The position numbers were made by a program, and so were the translations under genes. From assembly GCF_007826885.1 (NCBI RefSeq), contig NZ_ML675579.1, positions 62,955 to 126,954 of the forward strand: DNA of 64,000 nucleotides, given 5' to 3'. Of this stretch, positions 2,330 to 28,284 are shown in pieces (the first letter of the stretch is position 1; each line of letters opens with the position of its first letter). The notes under the pieces are model-generated. The model was given only the letters and a program-made list of their open reading frames with translations. It was not told where the DNA came from and ran no database searches. Origin of the DNA: Candidatus Nitrosocosmicus arcticus. GTDB lineage: Archaea; Thermoproteota; Nitrososphaeria; Nitrososphaerales; Nitrososphaeraceae.

Positions 2330-2980
2330 ATGTTCAACTTAACAAGTTGTCCACCTGTTATTGTTGCGACTGTTTCAGGCCGTTCCTATTATAAAATAAC
2401 AAGTGTATTAAAGTCACTTGATTTACGTTATTTGTCATTATCACCTGAAGAAGCGGCTCTATCAACCGGAAAAGTTATAATTACAACCATCGATGAATCC
2501 AAAATCGTAAATAGAGATAATGTGTATTTGGATACCCAATTAGAAAAATTTCCTCTGTCTATTAAAGCAAAAATTCTACAAAACTATATGGGCTACTTTG
2601 GTCCTTCTAAGGAACAATTGATAATCGGAATAGATCCTGGAAAAAGGATTGGCATTTCTATACTATACTGTTATTTCGAACTAGATAGGATAATTCTGTC
2701 TTCGGTTAATTCTACTGTTGAAAAAATCAGTTTTGTTTTATCCTCAATCGAGTCTCCAACTAAAATAGTTAGAATTGGTGATGGAAGTTTGGCTCTCTCT
2801 CATCAAATAGCTGGAAATCTGAAATCGTATTTTAAAGATGAGGTAGTTATTGAAATTGTAGACGAATATGGAACCTCTATAAGACAAGGTACGGAAAAAA
2901 ACCGTGGTGGGATCCGTGATATCAGCTCTGCTAGAAAAATTGCTTTTAGAAAGGGGAAAATATGGAATAGTTGTAAGTAG
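2330..2980 (+). CDS. RuvC/RNase H-fold protein, function unknown
   Basis: This 216-residue protein contains IIGIDPGKRIGISIL at about residues 99-113, the first beta strand and catalytic Asp of the RuvC/YqgF RNase H-like fold. A second acidic segment, VIEIVDEYGTS, lies near residue 185, followed by a basic tail. The fold suggests a nuclease or Holliday-junction enzyme, but I cannot see the full set of catalytic acids. The gene ends 42 bp before tRNA-Gly. Its last 63 codons are present again, diverged but still readable, at 21171-21359, which makes it the upstream flank of the integration site. Confidence 0.75.
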   Translation: MFNLTSCPPVIVATVSGRSYYKITSVLKSLDLRYLSLSPEEAALSTGKVIITTIDESKIVNRDNVYLDTQLEKFPLSIKAKILQNYMGYFGPSKEQLIIGIDPGKRIGISILYCYFELDRIILSSVNSTVEKISFVLSSIESPTKIVRIGDGSLALSHQIAGNLKSYFKDEVVIEIVDEYGTSIRQGTEKNRGGIRDISSARKIAFRKGKIWNSCK

Positions 2981-3022
2981 CATCATTAAGTTATTAATAC
3001 CGTTTGGTTAATTTCATGTCAG

Positions 3023-3097
3023 GCGAGGTTGGCCCAGCCTGGTTAAGGTACGAGCTTCCCAAGCTCGGGATCGCGGGTTCAAATCCCGCACTTCGCA
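3023..3097 (+). tRNA. tRNA-Gly (anticodon CCC)
   Basis: The acceptor stem GCGAGGT (3023-3029) pairs with ACTTCGC (3090-3096). The anticodon arm is CGAGC-TTCCCAA-GCTCG with anticodon CCC. The T arm is GCGGG-TTCAAAT-CCCGC (3073-3089), and the discriminator is A3097. No CCA is encoded. Its 3' end is the integration target of the island: a recombinase gene follows at 3251, a damaged second copy sits at 21405, and a 3' remnant lies at 26915. Confidence 0.96.
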
Positions 3098-3122
3098 CTT
3101 TATAACGATGAAAATCGACTAT

Positions 3123-3250: not shown

Positions 3251-4348
3251 GTGAATAAACAAACTTTGTTTCAGAGTAAGAATCTACAGAAATGGAAAAG
3301 CGTTACTGTTAGACTTAAGGAAGATGAATTGGCTGTTCTAAATACTAAACTCGACTTGAATGGCTTTAAGACTTTCAGTGAATTCATTCATGCATGGGTT
3401 CGTGGCCAATATCCTCTCCATGAAAATAATGAACAAGTTGAAAAGTTGATACAGAATATAAGAGATAAAGGAGTTAGAGATCCACTAACTGGTGAATTTA
3501 ACCCTACCTTTTATAGAAATGTTGACTCTAAAGACATGTTAAGGGATCTTTCTACAAGGTACGTCTACCTCAAACATGCTAAAGATTTAGTACGGTACTA
3601 TGAAAGATATGTTGATATATTTTTCACAAAGCCACACCTCATAGCTTCTGAAAGTGGACACAAGCGCGCCTGGATATGTGACGCCATGCGAAAGTTCGGG
3701 ATGTATTATGATAGAAAGATGCATAATCCAGAACTTAAAATCCTGATTGAAGAAATAATCAAACGCTACGAACTAAATAAAAAGATGCGAATTCATGACC
3801 GCATATGGCTAGCGGATGAAGGTTTTATTGAAGCAATGGTCCACAAAGCCTTAGAGATCGATGGAGATATTGGAATAATCATCAAGTTTGCATTCTTTTC
3901 AGGATTAAGAGGAGAGGAGATTACCTACGCACATGAAACCCCTATTTGCGATTCTCTAACGGGCTGTAGCTGTAGCAAGTTACATATTACTCAAAAGAAG
4001 AATGTTTCTATTATTGTCCTAAATAGAATTGTGGGTCAAAAGCATTCCTATTTTACAATTGTCCCGACTACACTTTGGAAGATGTTTAAAAATCTCAGTA
4101 AGGTAACAAAAGAAGAAAGAAATATTTCTCATATGATGATAAAGAATCATACGGAAAGTAAAGCAACATTAATGGATCTTAGAAAGTTTCACTATAATAT
4201 ATTGTGCCGATCCGAGATGGGAGAAATCGGGGCGGAGGTGTTAGCCGGTCGTGCGAAGTCTATTTCCGCAAAACATTACCTTATTCATGAACTGGATAAA
4301 ATAAGTGATCAATATTCTAGGTGTATGTTGAAAACTTATTTTGGATAG
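3251..4348 (+). CDS. Tyrosine recombinase (integrase) of the island
   Basis: This 365-residue protein starts with a ribbon-helix-helix-like segment (residues 17-55, SVTVRLKEDELAVLNTKL). The catalytic domain has box I at FFSGLRGEE (Arg220), box II at LMDLRKFH (Arg311) and the probable nucleophile Tyr343 in AKHYLIHEL. The usual His before the second Arg is Met here. These features identify a site-specific recombinase that integrates the element at tRNA-Gly next door. The start is GTG at 3251. Shortly after the catalytic Tyr the frame stops at 4348, while 4353-4436 continues one frame over with a plausible tail (QFYRPDINEIITKRIRPVLD). The gene is therefore probably missing its last ~30 residues through a frameshift, and activity is uncertain. 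Confidence 0.88.
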   Translation: MNKQTLFQSKNLQKWKSVTVRLKEDELAVLNTKLDLNGFKTFSEFIHAWVRGQYPLHENNEQVEKLIQNIRDKGVRDPLTGEFNPTFYRNVDSKDMLRDLSTRYVYLKHAKDLVRYYERYVDIFFTKPHLIASESGHKRAWICDAMRKFGMYYDRKMHNPELKILIEEIIKRYELNKKMRIHDRIWLADEGFIEAMVHKALEIDGDIGIIIKFAFFSGLRGEEITYAHETPICDSLTGCSCSKLHITQKKNVSIIVLNRIVGQKHSYFTIVPTTLWKMFKNLSKVTKEERNISHMMIKNHTESKATLMDLRKFHYNILCRSEMGEIGAEVLAGRAKSISAKHYLIHELDKISDQYSRCMLKTYFG

Positions 4349-4436: not shown

Positions 4437-5030
4437 GGATCATTGAGGGATATTGATTATATCAATCAAAAGACGAATTCAATAAATGCGTATATTGAAT
4501 AACAACTACCGTCGGTCAATACGGATGTTTTAAGAAAGGATAATTCAAGTCTTGGCAGAGATAACAAAGATCAGTGCTAGATCAATTTTGAAGACTTATT
4601 TTTTGCTAACGAAATTAAGTCATGGATTGTTATCATGTTCTGTAATTATGCTAGATATGGATATATTTTGCGTTTTATTATCAAATAAATTCAATGGTGT
4701 AAAGCCATGGTGCATATTTCACAAGTTATTCTAATATTTTGGATTTGACAGTATTGATTGATTGATTGTAATAAGATATCTGTTACTTGGGCTTAAAATA
4801 ATAGTCAAATTTGTTACTAATCTCCACGTGCCCAAACACAATCATCTGTCATTTGGTACTATTACAGAGCAAATAAAGTGAATATCCCTTAAAGATCTCT
4901 TCTAAAATAATAGATTTGATTTGAGAAAAAATAGGTATTGGTTACATTATCATGTTTATTGCTGCACTTACTCAAATAATTGAATCTATCTATCTACCTA
5001 TCTACAGCAAAAGACTAGCTAGCTATCTAT
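4437..5030. other. Intergenic region with integrase-end fragment
   Basis: Positions 4552-4600 encode a stretch resembling the integrase C-terminus (ISARSILKTYF against SDQYSRCMLKTYFG), in a short frame with no further support. The rest is AT-rich; short TCTA tandem runs lie near 4988-5030 next to the stop of the large secreted protein. Confidence 0.45.
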
Positions 5031-8675: not shown

Positions 8676-9327
8676 CCCTGAAGATAGAGTATATAAATAT
8701 AAGGTTTACGCAGTGTAACATTGAGTAGTCGCTTGTGCCTAACAAGTCTGTGAAAGAAACTTTAGAGGTCAAGAAAAGAAGTAAAGAATCCTTGATAGTG
8801 TTTTTCTATTTACTAATATATCAGTTGAATAGGGTTGCCCGGTCTGACTAATTGTTGTAATCATTTCGCATCGCCCAGTTAAGGCGGCGTCACAATCTTC
8901 ATATATAGAGAACGGTTTTGGAGGTTCCGATTACTCAAACGTGAGCAGTGGCAACAATGTTCTTTATATGGATGAATGAAGACAGGGGCTTCTCATATTT
9001 ACTGGGCAACGACATATATGATCCAAAGTCATCATCAGTTTCTAATTTCTTTTTCATATATTTGCTCCTTTTTACGTAAATCACAGTGACAATGCGTTTT
9101 AGAATTTGGTATTTATTATCCTAGATTTTTGTGAAATAAAAGTTAATACACAGATAGCATTCGAGTTTGATGGGTAGGTTGCCCCGTAGAAGATATTATG
9201 TTGTTTTCATGGACCTTACTATAGGGTCAGTCAGCGCCGCGCTTTAGAGCGCGGCGGGATTAACATTCCCTGGATTGAACCCATACCAAAGAGTAAACTA
9301 TACAGTAACGATATATTGATTTATAAT
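8676..9327. other. Intergenic region with GC-rich palindromes
   Basis: An imperfect GC palindrome lies near 8872-8889 and a perfect hairpin at 9235-9256. No gene seen. Confidence 0.4.
9235..9256. repeat. GC-rich hairpin (island family)
   Basis: The stem CGCCGCGCT/AGCGCGGCG (9 bp, perfect) closes a TTAG loop. Confidence 0.85.
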
Positions 9328-14840: not shown

Positions 14841-14861
14841 GCCGCCGCCTTAAGCGGCGGC
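14841..14861. repeat. GC-rich hairpin (island family)
   Basis: The perfect 8-bp stem GCCGCCGC/GCGGCGGC closes a CTTAA loop. Confidence 0.85.
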
Positions 14862-14916: not shown

Positions 14917-14937
14917 GCGCCGCACTCAGCGCGGCGC
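14917..14937. repeat. GC-rich hairpin (island family)
   Basis: The perfect 7-bp stem GCGCCGC/GCGGCGC closes an ACTCAGC loop. Confidence 0.85.
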
Positions 14938-15184: not shown

Positions 15185-15318
15185 CTGTCAGGGTTGTCAG
15201 GGTTGTCAGGGCATTTCCTATTGTTACTTTTTATTGAATTAAGTATGTATATACATACTTACAAAGTCTCCAAGAACAACAGTAAGAAGAACCTTGACAC
15301 CCTTGACACCCATGACAC
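15185..15318. other. Putative replication origin: inverted iteron clusters around a palindrome
   Basis: Three 9-bp direct repeats (CTGTCAGGG, TTGTCAGGG, TTGTCAGGG) start at 15185, 15194 and 15203. Three 9-bp repeats in opposite orientation (CCTTGACAC, CCTTGACAC, CCATGACAC) start at 15292, 15301 and 15310. Between them is AT-rich DNA with a perfect 20-bp palindrome at 15241-15260 (AAGTATGTATATACATACTT). The cluster lies about 155 bp beyond the 3' end of the PrimPol-helicase gene, as expected for a plasmid-type origin. No experimental support is visible. Confidence 0.6.
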
Positions 15319-15473: not shown

Positions 15474-17837
15474 TTAAGCTTGCGATATCCATTCAGTAAC
15501 TTGTTGTTGACGATTGGTACTTACAAATTCAGGCTTTAGTTTTTTACCTGTCCAGCAATTAGGCCTTTCATCTCCTATTGTTATTCTAGATTGTTGCCAA
15601 CCCATACTCTTTAAAACCTTCCCAACAGCTTCTGGAGATTTGGAGGCCAAAGAATGATTATTGATATATTTTTTAAATGCGTTATAAAAGTCCGCTTTAA
15701 TAGTATAGTCAACATCTGTAGAGTTCTCCGATATCGCTTCATCCACAAAGGCTTTTACTGGGTTAACAGCTCTATCGTGTTTTAGCCTCCTTTCGTCAAT
15801 GGTTTTTTCATTAAGATACATTCTCTTATTTTTTATTATAATTCGAAGGAATTTCATAAGAATGTTAAATATGGCTGATAATTCCTCTTTATTTGATAGT
15901 TTATCAATTAAATAGGGATCATCATTCTCCCCCTCAAACTTGTTTGGAAAACTGATTATAATCTCCCTACGATAGTAAGCATCCGTTTGATCTGGTGTAT
16001 TGGTTATAGCATTGGTATTAAAAAATAACTTGGCATAGATATAAGTGTCACATGCGTCTTTATACTTTCGCTCAATTCGATTTGGCTGCTTCCTACCTCC
16101 TGTCAATTTCTTTAGTAAAGAAGTATCCTTGATCATAACACCGGAAAGCTCTGTATCGATGTTGATATCTTTAAACTCCAGATCAGATAATGCAAACCTA
16201 TTATCAATCAAGGAAGAAAGAGAAACATTACTTACATTTTTCTCTCCGTGTAATTGTGTTAATAGGCTTGTAAAGACACTCTTCCCATTTCTGCCATCAC
16301 CAAATAATTTAAAATAGTATTCGAAGGGACAGTCTCGGTAAAATGTATAGGCCATTGCTTCGACTACAGTCCTTATATCAGTGGGATACAGCACTTGTTT
16401 TAGAAAGGTCCAGAACATCTTTGGCTTGGCATTTGGATCATACCAGATAGGTTCTTGAATAGTTGAATAGTATGATTGATGATGAGGTGTCAATTCATCT
16501 TTTTTCCAATTATATAATCCATTTTTCAGGTTTATGATGCTAAGATCCTTGTCAAAGTCACTTATGGAAACATAAGTTTTTCTTTTAATATGACCCTTAA
16601 TTTCTGAAAGATCGTAATTTGAGAGTTCATATTTAAATTCCGCTTCCGCCATCTTGTCGATTAGGATTTCACCCCCATTAACATATACTCCATCTTTGTA
16701 GAAGAGAATAGCTTGTGATTCTTCAATTGTTATAAAATGTACTTTCTCAAGTATCGATTCGGCCGCTATTTCAATCAACTCTGGTTTTTCTTTTATGTCA
16801 GAAGATGATTTTCTGATATGATTATCTAAATCAAGAGGATACGCAGATTTTGATACAAATTTAATCTGTTGAACCCATATAGATCTAAATTCGTTATCAT
16901 CTAATGGAGGTTCACAGTGATGTTGATTCCACCTATAAGCAATTTCTTTAATCTCGTCTTCTGTCATTACTGGTTTTAATCGAACTAAAAGAGAACCTAT
17001 AATTCTAAGTAACGATTTGTGTCTACTTCCTACAGTTACACGACAGTTTTCCTTGAACAGGTCAGCAATCAATACCTCACCGTTGTTCTTTTCACCTACA
17101 TGTCCATACTTTTTATATATCTGGTCTAAAGCATCCTCTAGCCCTTCTGATTGAGATATGTTCAATACTGATGGGATTATTCTTCCTACAATTTCATATT
17201 TACACCCCATTTTGTGAAGAGAAGGGGTGCATATCATTAACCCATGTCCTCCTTCTGATTTAACTTCAATAGCGGGCAACAATGTATTATGATCTCCAAA
17301 AGTTCTGCTTGTGGTATTGATACCACTTTTTTTTGTCAACGGTTTTTCAACTATAAAGTAAACGTGAGCTTTGTCCTCCTTATTATCAACGTGTTGTTCT
17401 ACTAATGTCTTGCTAGACAACTCATCCAATGTCTTTGTAGTTGGAAAGAAGGTAAGAAACTCATCGATGCCTTTTTTGTTATCAAAGTCAATACATGCAA
17501 GATACTTTTCCTTGTAGATTCCTCGCCATATCTTTCCCGCGATTATTGATATTCCTTTATCAAACTTCTTTTGATCTCTCCATTCTTTGTATTGTTCCTC
17601 AGGAACTGGTTTGTCTTGAAAGTCCTTCCATGCAATCAACGGAGTTTTGTTTTGAGAATCAGCCGGTATCACATTAACACCAAAGACATAAAACCAATAG
17701 TCCGCCCACTCATTAACATCAGCATAGAGTCCGAATAGACTTAATCGATCTAGGAGTCCGTCTCTATTAAAAGATGGTAATTCATTTACTTTTAAGAAAT
17801 TACATGATATTATATTATTAGATAAAGTGGTCATCAT
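15474..17837 (-). CDS. PrimPol / SF3 helicase replication protein
   Basis: This 787-residue protein combines an N-terminal bifunctional primase-polymerase domain (about residues 40-240; acidic CIDFDNKKG, with LPAIEVKSEGGHGLMICTPS further on), a linker or PriCT-like region (about 270-350), and a C-terminal D5/P4-type superfamily 3 helicase. The helicase has Walker A GDGRNGKSVF near residue 510, DINIDTELSG as Walker B region, and the sensor stretch AKLFFNTNAI. Such proteins prime and unwind plasmid or virus DNA, so this is the replication initiator of the element. It starts 11 bp after the stop of a zinc-ribbon gene on the same strand. A probable origin lies just past its 3' end. Confidence 0.93.
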   Translation of the reverse strand: MMTTLSNNIISCNFLKVNELPSFNRDGLLDRLSLFGLYADVNEWADYWFYVFGVNVIPADSQNKTPLIAWKDFQDKPVPEEQYKEWRDQKKFDKGISIIAGKIWRGIYKEKYLACIDFDNKKGIDEFLTFFPTTKTLDELSSKTLVEQHVDNKEDKAHVYFIVEKPLTKKSGINTTSRTFGDHNTLLPAIEVKSEGGHGLMICTPSLHKMGCKYEIVGRIIPSVLNISQSEGLEDALDQIYKKYGHVGEKNNGEVLIADLFKENCRVTVGSRHKSLLRIIGSLLVRLKPVMTEDEIKEIAYRWNQHHCEPPLDDNEFRSIWVQQIKFVSKSAYPLDLDNHIRKSSSDIKEKPELIEIAAESILEKVHFITIEESQAILFYKDGVYVNGGEILIDKMAEAEFKYELSNYDLSEIKGHIKRKTYVSISDFDKDLSIINLKNGLYNWKKDELTPHHQSYYSTIQEPIWYDPNAKPKMFWTFLKQVLYPTDIRTVVEAMAYTFYRDCPFEYYFKLFGDGRNGKSVFTSLLTQLHGEKNVSNVSLSSLIDNRFALSDLEFKDINIDTELSGVMIKDTSLLKKLTGGRKQPNRIERKYKDACDTYIYAKLFFNTNAITNTPDQTDAYYRREIIISFPNKFEGENDDPYLIDKLSNKEELSAIFNILMKFLRIIIKNKRMYLNEKTIDERRLKHDRAVNPVKAFVDEAISENSTDVDYTIKADFYNAFKKYINNHSLASKSPEAVGKVLKSMGWQQSRITIGDERPNCWTGKKLKPEFVSTNRQQQVTEWISQA

Positions 17838-17848
17838 CTTTTTATCAC

Positions 17849-18043
17849 CTACAATTTATTTTCCGTGACAATGTCATCATTACTACCTTTGTCATCTCTT
17901 TGTAACCAAATGTCAGCTATATGAGGAGTTTTTTTTATGAATACTGTAGACTTACATCGAGAACAGTTTGCGCAATAAGGATTAGAACCCTTGTAATTCC
18001 ATACGTTTGAACAGCGTTTGCATATTAAACGATACATGCCCAC
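17849..18043 (-). CDS. Zinc-ribbon protein upstream of PrimPol
   Basis: This 64-residue protein has two metal-binding knuckles, CKRC and CANCSRC (residues 9-12 and 24-30), forming a zinc ribbon in the N-terminal half; the acidic tail has no motif. It is 11 bp upstream of the PrimPol-helicase gene on the same strand and is presumably co-transcribed. It may be a DNA-binding accessory factor or regulator of replication. Its role is inferred from position only. Confidence 0.75.
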   Translation of the reverse strand: MGMYRLICKRCSNVWNYKGSNPYCANCSRCKSTVFIKKTPHIADIWLQRDDKGSNDDIVTENKL

Positions 18044-18220
18044 ATACTCATATTAAAAATAGATTTAAAAATCTATTTACTTAACAGTAGGCATATAGAA
18101 AAACTACTGTTTTCGTACATTCTCATAGTCTGCTTCCCTTATATAAACTAATAATCCTCGCTCCTATTGGATAAGAATAAGGTTACCTGGCTAAACCTAG
18201 TCGTGTATTGCTGCTATCCC

Positions 18221-18241
18221 GCGCCGCCTTTAAGGCGGCGC
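18221..18241. repeat. GC-rich hairpin (island family)
   Basis: The perfect 8-bp stem GCGCCGCC/GGCGGCGC closes a TTTAA loop and is followed by TATAAG. This copy is close to the family consensus. Confidence 0.85.
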
Positions 18242-18379: not shown

Positions 18380-18396
18380 CGCCCGCTGAGCGGGCG
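18380..18396. repeat. GC-rich hairpin (island family)
   Basis: The 7-bp stem CGCCCGC/GCGGGCG closes a TGA loop. Confidence 0.8.
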
Positions 18397-18458
18397 GGAA
18401 TCAAGGTTGAGGGAAAGGACAAGTAGAAAACTTTGATTGAAAATGCATCTAAAAAGGA

Positions 18459-21170: not shown

Positions 21171-21359
21171 GTACTTTCTCATCAAATAGCGGGGATTCTG
21201 AAATCATATTTTAAAGACGAGGTAATTATTGAAATTGTAGATGAATATGGAACCTCTATAAGACAAGGTGCGGAAAAAAACCGTGGCGGGATCCGTGATA
21301 TTAGCTCTGCTAGAAAAATTGCTTTTAGAAAGGGGAAAATATGGAATAGTGGTAAGTAG
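21171..21359 (+). pseudogene. Truncated second copy of the RuvC-like gene end
   Basis: The 63-codon frame (from LSHQIAGILKSYFKDEV to IWNSGK-stop) matches the end of the gene at 2330-2980. About 16 substitutions are spread over 225 bp including the following spacer, mostly synonymous, plus a short indel. Homology starts abruptly near 21173. It continues through the spacer into the tRNA-like sequence at 21405. The pattern suggests DNA from a related host in which the gene was functional. Confidence 0.85.
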
Positions 21360-21404
21360 CAGCTACATTAAGTTATTAATACCGTATGATTAATTTTATG
21401 TTAG

Positions 21405-21467
21405 GCGAGGTTGGCCCAGCCTGGTTAAGGTACGAGCGAAGTGCGGGTTCAAATCCCGCACTTCGCA
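21405..21467 (+). pseudogene. Damaged tRNA-Gly with acquired perfect hairpin
   Basis: The acceptor, D arm and T arm match tRNA-Gly at 3023-3097. The 17 bases TTCCCAAGCTCGGGATC covering the anticodon loop, the anticodon 3' stem and the variable region are replaced by GAAGT. The result is a perfect 12-bp inverted repeat (21436-21447 against 21455-21466) around the T loop. It has no anticodon and cannot serve as a tRNA. Confidence 0.92.
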
Positions 21468-26914: not shown

Positions 26915-26937
26915 CGGGTTCAAATCCCGCACTCGCA
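26915..26937 (+). repeat. tRNA-Gly 3' remnant (distal att site)
   Basis: CGGGTTCAAATCCCGCAC followed by TCGCA matches the T arm and acceptor end of tRNA-Gly, with one T missing in the acceptor strand, and the match continues into CTTT. It is the outermost trace of integration into the tRNA and is taken as the right limit of the island. Confidence 0.8.
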
Positions 26938-27005
26938 CTTTTAGATTTTATAAATAGTATTTTCTTTTATAAGCAAATTCATCTATAGTATACATGAAGA
27001 ATTAG

Positions 27006-27303: not shown

Positions 27304-28284
27304 CTAATTGTTTTTAATAACTTCAAGGCTCATTACTTCGTTCCAGTGCTTCTCAAACATTATTTGCTGGACTAAGACATTGTGTCCTTCATTTGAGAAA
27401 GTTGCAATCAATTTGTTGTCGTGACCGGATTGAATATGAAGTAAGTATTTGTTGTCTGATATTATTGTCATTTCATCTAAATCGCCTAGTTTGTCTGTGT
27501 ATCCAAATTGAATTGCGTTGGCTGGATTTGACTTATTGAACTCAGTAATTTCTTTTATCAAATATTCATCCACATTGTCGGTAAGGATTTTGATCATCAC
27601 GTGTTTTTTAATCAATAACGGGAAATAGTTCATAAATTTACTCATGTTTAATGTGCTACAAAGGATTCTGTTGGATGAAAAAAATATCAGTTCCTTTTTA
27701 CAGGTTAAAACTAAAGATTCAATCTCGCTTAGTATGTTGTCATACTCTGTTATTGTTCTCTGAGTGTTTGTTTTATCTTCATACTCTATCTCTTTTCTTC
27801 TTATGGCTAGTGGTATAGCCATTTCCCAAAGTTTATTGAAGATAGATTGTTGTTTATCTACTAATGCTTTAGAATTACTCCACAGAGTTTGGTCAGGTCT
27901 ATCGCTTTTGGTATGAAATATGTATACCATATACGCTCTATTATCAAAAATTCCGAAGTTCCCGTTAATGTCACTAAGGCAACGGATTTCATGACTTCTT
28001 ATAGAATTGATAAAATCAATGTTCTCTTTAGTTACTTCGACAATCAACCTTAACTTAATGCCCTTTTCTCTAACTAATTTTTCCACAAATGCAATGCCAT
28101 CTGTAAAATATCTGGAATTAAAGTTTATCATATTGGAATCCCAAACGGTATCATAACCCTTTTTAACAATAGTCATAGAATGCACAACCATCTCAAGCAT
28201 CATATCATGATCAAACATAACTTCAGTCAGTATAGGATGATAGTACTGTGACTCCTTTAACTGTCTAAAGGCCGAATCATCCAA
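27304..28284 (-). CDS. Tandem sensory-domain protein without kinase
   Basis: This 326-residue protein consists of two copies of a sensory domain that normally forms the N-terminal half of Nitrososphaerales histidine kinases. Copy 1 (residues ~25-165) shows GIKLRLIVEVTKENIDFINS and on to NGNFGIFDNRAYMV, then LVDKQQSIFNKLWEMAIPL. Copy 2 (~180-320) shows MIKILTDNVDEYLIKEITEF and VLVQQIMFEKHWNEVMSLEV. No phosphoacceptor His or ATPase domain follows. It may be a ligand-binding partner for kinases in trans or the residue of a former kinase. The fold recalls phospholipase-D-like sensor domains of archaeal TrmB regulators; that link is uncertain. Cytoplasmic. Confidence 0.65.
   Translation of the reverse strand: MDDSAFRQLKESQYYHPILTEVMFDHDMMLEMVVHSMTIVKKGYDTVWDSNMINFNSRYFTDGIAFVEKLVREKGIKLRLIVEVTKENIDFINSIRSHEIRCLSDINGNFGIFDNRAYMVYIFHTKSDRPDQTLWSNSKALVDKQQSIFNKLWEMAIPLAIRRKEIEYEDKTNTQRTITEYDNILSEIESLVLTCKKELIFFSSNRILCSTLNMSKFMNYFPLLIKKHVMIKILTDNVDEYLIKEITEFNKSNPANAIQFGYTDKLGDLDEMTIISDNKYLLHIQSGHDNKLIATFSNEGHNVLVQQIMFEKHWNEVMSLEVIKNN

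Follow-up and report, generated by a model that had tools for sequence, protein, structure and literature searches.

Facing arrays of 9-bp iterons beside a PrimPol-SF3 gene form a probable replication origin of an integrated archaeal element

The site at positions 15186-15318 of the 64-kb stretch of DNA analyzed here (the window) is very probably where an element integrated in the chromosome of an ammonia-oxidizing archaeon from soil, plasmid- or virus-like in kind, starts its replication. The winged helix of a PrimPol-SF3 protein would bind the site, and helicases placed head to head would replicate the element bidirectionally. An earlier note on this DNA had described three 9-bp repeats and three reverse-oriented ones flanking about 80 bp of AT-rich DNA, just past an operon of PrimPol-SF3 and zinc-ribbon genes, and had proposed a candidate origin from the conjunction of iterons, AT-rich core and initiator gene. 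We find the repeats at 15186-15318 around a core of 79 bp, with both genes where they had been placed, and the proposal gains support from the presence of such arrays at 11 of 11 close homologues of the initiator gene. The features of the site and of the adjoining operon are as follows.

15186-15212, plus strand: left iteron array, three 9-bp units, TGTCAGGGT TGTCAGGGT TGTCAGGGC
15213-15291, no strand: AT-rich core between both arrays, 79 bp, ~26% GC, candidate unwinding element
15240-15261, no strand: perfect 22-bp palindrome within the AT-rich core, TAAGTATGTATATACATACTTA
15292-15318, minus strand: right iteron array, three diverged units facing the left array, TGTCATGGG TGTCAAGGG TGTCAAGGT
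15474-17837, minus strand: initiator gene, 787 aa, with AEP PrimPol (PF09250), D5_N (PF08706) and SF3-type helicase (PF19263, DUF5906) domains and a C-terminal winged helix
15528-15785, minus strand: part coding for the RFX-type winged helix, about residues 685-770, the proposed iteron-binding domain
17849-18043, minus strand: zinc-ribbon ORF, 64 aa, upstream in the PrimPol operon

The site begins 156 bp beyond the stop codon of the PrimPol-SF3 gene, and its score for three plus three facing units of period 9 is 96.8, compared with 48.3 ± 2.7 for dinucleotide shuffles (z = 18); this comparison excludes a chance origin of the arrays. Facing-unit scores at periods other than 9 gave nothing comparable at 15186-15318. 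When the 64 kb were scanned in 254 stepped windows, the same site was the top facing period-9 place with a score of 97, and the second independent place, with a score of 70, lies in tandem-repeat coding sequence. The units TGTCAGGGT and TGTCAAGGG are identical at seven of nine bases, the share that had been noted for the facing repeats, and three copies of TGTCANGGN occur at only two loci in the 2.64-Mb genome, namely the window site, in both arms, and the locus of a second, paralogous PrimPol gene on contig C8 (the C8 paralogue). The window site has all the components of an iteron-type origin: short repeats in tandem at similar spacing, with AT-rich DNA and a gene for an initiator next to them. 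A single sub-threshold Rfam match, to a miRNA family (E 0.7), was taken as chance, and a structured RNA was rejected.

The palindrome TAAGTATGTATATACATACTTA is the longest perfect one in the window; it had been reported as perfect, which it is, and as 20 bp long, which is only the inner part of its 22 bp. A role for it in the conserved design of the origin is not borne out, as a notable inverted repeat is found in only 3 of the 11 homologous cores with which it was compared, and we rejected it as a core part.

Pfam, AF2 and Foldseek matches to ORF904, SaPI5 and RFX agree on an initiator architecture of AEP PrimPol, SF3 helicase and C-terminal winged helix, and the family profile matches the SaPI5 primase-helicase (7ola) with an E-value of 4.6e-15. 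The protein also shows the combination of D5-type helicase, C-terminal DNA-binding domain and downstream iterons that marks the SaPI/Cch2 class. Because the helicase is poorly modeled in the full-length prediction (pTM 0.34), our structural claims exclude that part. No HUH/RCR endonuclease domain was found in the initiator or in the scanned neighboring proteins, and a rolling-circle plasmid origin was rejected on this ground. An archaeal chromosomal oriC was rejected as well, since no orc1/cdc6 gene adjoins the site: the genome's one good match to cdc6 is on contig C16 and the window on C2.

We infer the binding protein, ring assembly, melting, priming and bidirectional replication as follows. 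Copies of the PrimPol-SF3 protein would bind both facing 9-bp arrays through their C-terminal RFX-type winged helices, and the inward-pointing arrays would place a pair of helicase rings on the AT-rich core, head to head. The core would then melt, the rings would move apart, and the PrimPol domain would prime both strands for the host replisome.

By analogy, the initiator most likely works like phage P4 alpha, SaPI Rep and Cch2. The SaPI5 primase-helicase/SaPI Rep and SCCmec Cch2 resemble it in having a D5-type self-loading helicase and a C-terminal domain that binds short repeats directly downstream of their own gene (PMC7581432); this downstream iteron binding is described for the C-terminal domain of Cch2, and SaPI Rep is thought to bind as two hexamers (PMC7581432). 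These systems differ in being bacterial, Cch2 has three 5-nt iterons, and SaPI is likened here by its published description. P4 alpha, likened by its description in PMC4234260, is likewise a single protein that acts as primase and helicase and uses a winged helix to bind the origin, where it binds repeats, but its primase is of the Toprim type and not AEP. The integrated elements of thaumarchaea with AEP-S3H proteins share the kind of host, the type of replication protein and the tyrosine integrases; the survey passages on these proteins mention no origin or iterons (PMC6563490).

The earlier note had raised the question of whether homologous PrimPol loci lack these repeats. Facing arrays of ~9-bp units are present at the gene 3' end in 11 of 11 close homologues (z 4.9-18) and at most of the distant ones, and on this sequence comparison the window site is one of a conserved locus type. 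The repeat sequences vary between the close loci (TGTCAGGGT, TGTCATAGT, GGCATAGGT, TTGGACAGT and ATCCATAGT) and each locus has matching arms on its two sides; at two of these loci, with 10-bp spacings, the units were assigned by eye. At the 3' end of the C8 paralogue (47% identity) there are five plus three facing units of the TGTCAGGG type, of which the gene-side ones overlap the stop codon; overlap of the arrays with the initiator stop codon is seen at L002 and L015. The third PrimPol gene, on C9, has three plus three facing 8/9-bp repeats at its 3' end (TTTGACAG TTTGACAG ... / CTTGACGG CTTGACAG; L011, ~8860-8995; z 7.5), and all three PrimPol genes of the genome therefore carry facing arrays. 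The C9 protein is 880 aa long, has no recognized D5/DUF5906 domain and ends in a zinc-finger-like tail. Further TTGACAG/CTGTCAA boxes lie near the C9 arrays.

Single-protein scans of genome and viral collections returned no homologues; alignment-based searches found them. Among the distant homologues, facing arrays were detected in Methanolliviera (z 14.7), an Anaerolineaceae bacterium (9.9), Methanomassiliicoccales (6.7) and several Nitrososphaerales loci (7-9), and among plasmids, viruses and islands in Salinibacter pSR11 (8.8), a Methanoculleus virus (6.1) and a Staphylococcus epidermidis island (7.1); viral contigs of IMG/VR show the same facing layout. A uniform test took in 45 of 54 loci, with diverse homologues. 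Downstream of the gene, 26 of the 45 had a z of at least 6; of 131 control windows drawn from those loci, one did. As the loci are related, these counts are non-independent trials. The same threshold was reached in 4 of 386 cases in an independent background. Offered four periods, 22 of the 26 positive loci preferred 9.

Period 9 is a rule rather than a law, and a few loci use 8, 10 or 11. A Streptococcus phage prefers period 8, and period 11 is preferred in one IMG/VR viral contig and an Alicyclobacillus plasmid (L074 and L104), with the same facing layout 3' of the primase gene. Around a third of the distant homologues have no clear downstream array; three of these have an upstream one. Nor is the rule universal: at the ends tested, no clear array of period 9 was seen in haloarchaeal plasmids, Thermaerobacter, Parageobacillus, a Proteus phage and a Streptococcus satellite.

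Among proteins of this architecture the best studied is that of pRN1. In this plasmid, two groups have shown that the 100 bp directly following orf904 are needed in cis for replication (PMC4234260; PMC3869888), and one of them that the origin region restores replication when moved (PMC4234260). This requirement supports the reading of the window site as an origin. The two systems share the PrimPol-SF3-winged helix architecture (ORF904) and the place of the origin, which directly follows the initiator gene, spans ~100 bp and is AT-rich in its middle (58 bp in pRN1). They differ in that each pRN1 arm consists of two clear units and is almost perfectly complementary to the other, compared with three plus three diverged units and a 79-bp core in the window, and in that the gene upstream is CopG (ORF56) in pRN1 and the zinc ribbon in the window. 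Berkner et al. describe the pRN1 origin as being without the usual iteron structure and the binding motif of the protein as unidentified; they saw no in vitro binding of the protein to the origin region, suggested a need for host proteins or supercoiled DNA, and rejected rolling-circle replication (PMC4234260).

In our analysis each stem arm of pRN1 (L097, 5077-5183) can be re-read as two tandem facing 9-mers, TGTCCATAG TGTCCAACT. This plasmid alone cannot separate the iteron from the hairpin reading because its arms are also nearly complementary. In pHEN7 (L107, ~4687-4780) the arms read GTCACCACT GTCACAACT vs GTCACCACT GACACCACT (z 10.2), pRN2 fits the facing 9-mer pattern with a z of 9, and pDL10 is weak. 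The tandem 9-mers are clearer in pHEN7 than in pRN1, and there are mismatches between its arms.

The pRN1 origin has been published as a stem-loop of 100 bp that must be intact (PMC4234260; PMC3869888), which raises the alternative that the window site is a stem-loop (cruciform) origin, in which the initiator would recognize an extruded hairpin and the repeats would be incidental. The window arms are indeed partly complementary and the core holds the 22-bp palindrome, but across 26 loci, a set that excluded the pRN plasmids, units have an identity of 0.69 in the hairpin register and 0.67 off register (Wilcoxon p = 0.35), and the in-register value equals the 0.69 found within arms. Repetition and not complementarity is what these loci conserve, because units that would pair in a stem are no more alike than units that would not. 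The window arms behave in the same way, with an identity of 0.78 both in and off register, and they do not form a long stem-loop. Furthermore, a stem needs no tandem period-9 repetition inside its arms, and the palindrome is unconserved. We regard a stem-loop origin as quite improbable.

Turning to the protein that reads the duplex repeats, models and sequence comparisons point to the C-terminal RFX-type winged helix of the PrimPol itself, and not to the zinc ribbon, as the likely reader. The model of the C-terminal domain has a mean pLDDT of 81, and the closest structures are the DNA-binding domains of RFX1 and RFX5 (1dp7, E 7.5e-4, TM 0.77 on the target); the C8 paralogue has a Pfam RFX match with an E-value of 8.7e-5, under the curated cut-off. 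RFX1 contacts the major groove mainly through its wing (PMC8998557). With helicase distance removed, iteron distance between loci correlates with wing distance (r = 0.32, p = 0.0015, 26 loci), and its correlation with recognition-helix distance is weak (r = 0.15, p = 0.06, 26 loci). The X-box half-site GYTRYY is present in the iterons of 13 of 29 loci vs 3.9 expected, a count chosen post hoc without correction for phylogeny and to be taken as a lead only. Many of the iterons hold this eukaryotic half-site. It can be seen, as GTTGTC or GTTACC, in the iteron arms of L001, L002, L014, L015, L061, L065, L063 and L101.

Binding of the iterons by the zinc ribbon rather than the PrimPol seems unlikely to a similar degree as the stem-loop. 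Such an ORF does precede both the window PrimPol and the C8 paralogue, the two TGTCAGGG-iteron loci of the genome, and the C9 PrimPol has a zinc-finger-like tail of its own. A crude two-CxxC search, however, found such an ORF upstream of these two loci only, with none seen at most array-bearing homologues; loci without it retain their iterons, and the zinc ribbon was rejected as a conserved partner. The winged helix, by contrast, is conserved and tracks the iterons.

Two further roles can be considered for the site itself. Iterons often act in autoregulation as well, which would suit an operator or another regulatory role, exerted on the PrimPol operon or on the convergent gene. But the site is 3' of the operon here and in most homologues, sometimes over the stop codon (L002, L015), and not at a promoter; sigma-70-type promoters are in no excess, a consensus type that does not test archaeal promoters; and the equivalent pRN1 site functions in replication and can be moved (PMC4234260), all of which makes an operator very unlikely. 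As repeat arrays near replication genes can serve as partition sites and the element encodes an integrase, a centromere-like partition site or the recombination site of the element might also be envisaged, but this is the least probable of the alternatives, since attachment takes place at the tRNA-Gly end, 12 kb off, the arrays accompany PrimPol-helicase genes across archaea, bacteria and viruses, and the pRN1 counterpart is needed for replication (PMC4234260).

The setting in an integrated element, which the earlier note had assumed, is borne out by an integrase and duplicated tRNA-Gly ends.

3023-3098, plus strand: tRNA-Gly(CCC), left attachment site, its 3' end duplicated
3251-4348, plus strand: archaeal tyrosine integrase (PF16795, PHROG 5127)
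21443-21467, plus strand: exact 25-bp copy of the tRNA-Gly 3' end, probable right attachment site, inside a near-copy (21219-21467) of 2840-3098
26915-26941, plus strand: third tRNA-Gly 3' fragment, a tRNA-end repeat, putative attachment site of an adjacent or composite element

Because of these features we place the PrimPol locus, on sequence grounds, inside an integrated mobile element, either one of ~18.4 kb or, if composite, one of ~23.8 kb. In related genomes this tRNA-Gly is likewise a hotspot of integration, in some with a homologous integrase adjoining it. Of this integrase family the genome encodes two members, one in the window and one near the C8 PrimPol paralogue. This copy of the element may be immobile. 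The duplication of 2840-3098 as 21219-21467 covers ~250 bp, among them the tRNA-Gly and the terminal part of a DUF460-like gene, and puts a second copy at the opposite end of the element; the tRNA-Gly in this copy is missing 12 nt around the anticodon, and the relative G008 has a similar, shorter duplication. The fragment at 26915-26941 suggests a tandem or composite element to the right.

Origins beside PrimPol/D5-type helicase genes are already known from pRN1, SaPI, SCCmec and P4. The earlier statement that the arrangement is not described must be narrowed, as an origin 3' of a PrimPol-SF3 gene is established in pRN1 (PMC4234260; PMC3869888) and for related helicases (PMC7581432); it holds to the extent that these are described as a stem-loop or with other repeats. 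No description of facing 9-bp iterons at PrimPol/D5-type genes was found in the literature searched, which covered few subscription papers, and the general facing-array rule is apparently new, as is our re-reading of pRN1. In its broadest form, to which we give even chances, inward-facing ~9-bp arrays around an AT-rich core 3' of the gene would be a general origin signature of PrimPol/D5-type initiators in archaea, bacteria and viruses, read as duplex by an RFX-type wing, and the pRN1 stem-loop would be one such site misread as a hairpin.

Replication of mobile elements in archaea and bacteria is commonly initiated by PrimPol-SF3 and D5-type proteins, for which few origins are known. If the signature is real, facing 9-bp arrays at the gene 3' end would allow origins to be found in plasmids, satellites and proviruses, including those of uncultured archaea. 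It would also offer a testable answer to the published dispute on pRN1, a base of Sulfolobus vectors: paired duplex iterons that load two helicase rings, and not a hairpin or rolling circle. The RFX fold together with X-box-like repeats suggests that a eukaryotic transcription-factor domain and the origin-reading domain of mobile elements share a mode of reading DNA.

Two other observations were made in the window. Short GC-rich hairpins (GCCGCCGCTTAAGGCGGCGGC and similar) are found in intergenic DNA at 14841-14861, 14917-14937, ~18220-18240 and ~18380-18400, and may be terminators or a dispersed repeat family. At 27304-28284 a 326-aa protein with no Pfam match belongs to a large paralogous family, with 15 matches in the genome and up to 26 in relatives.
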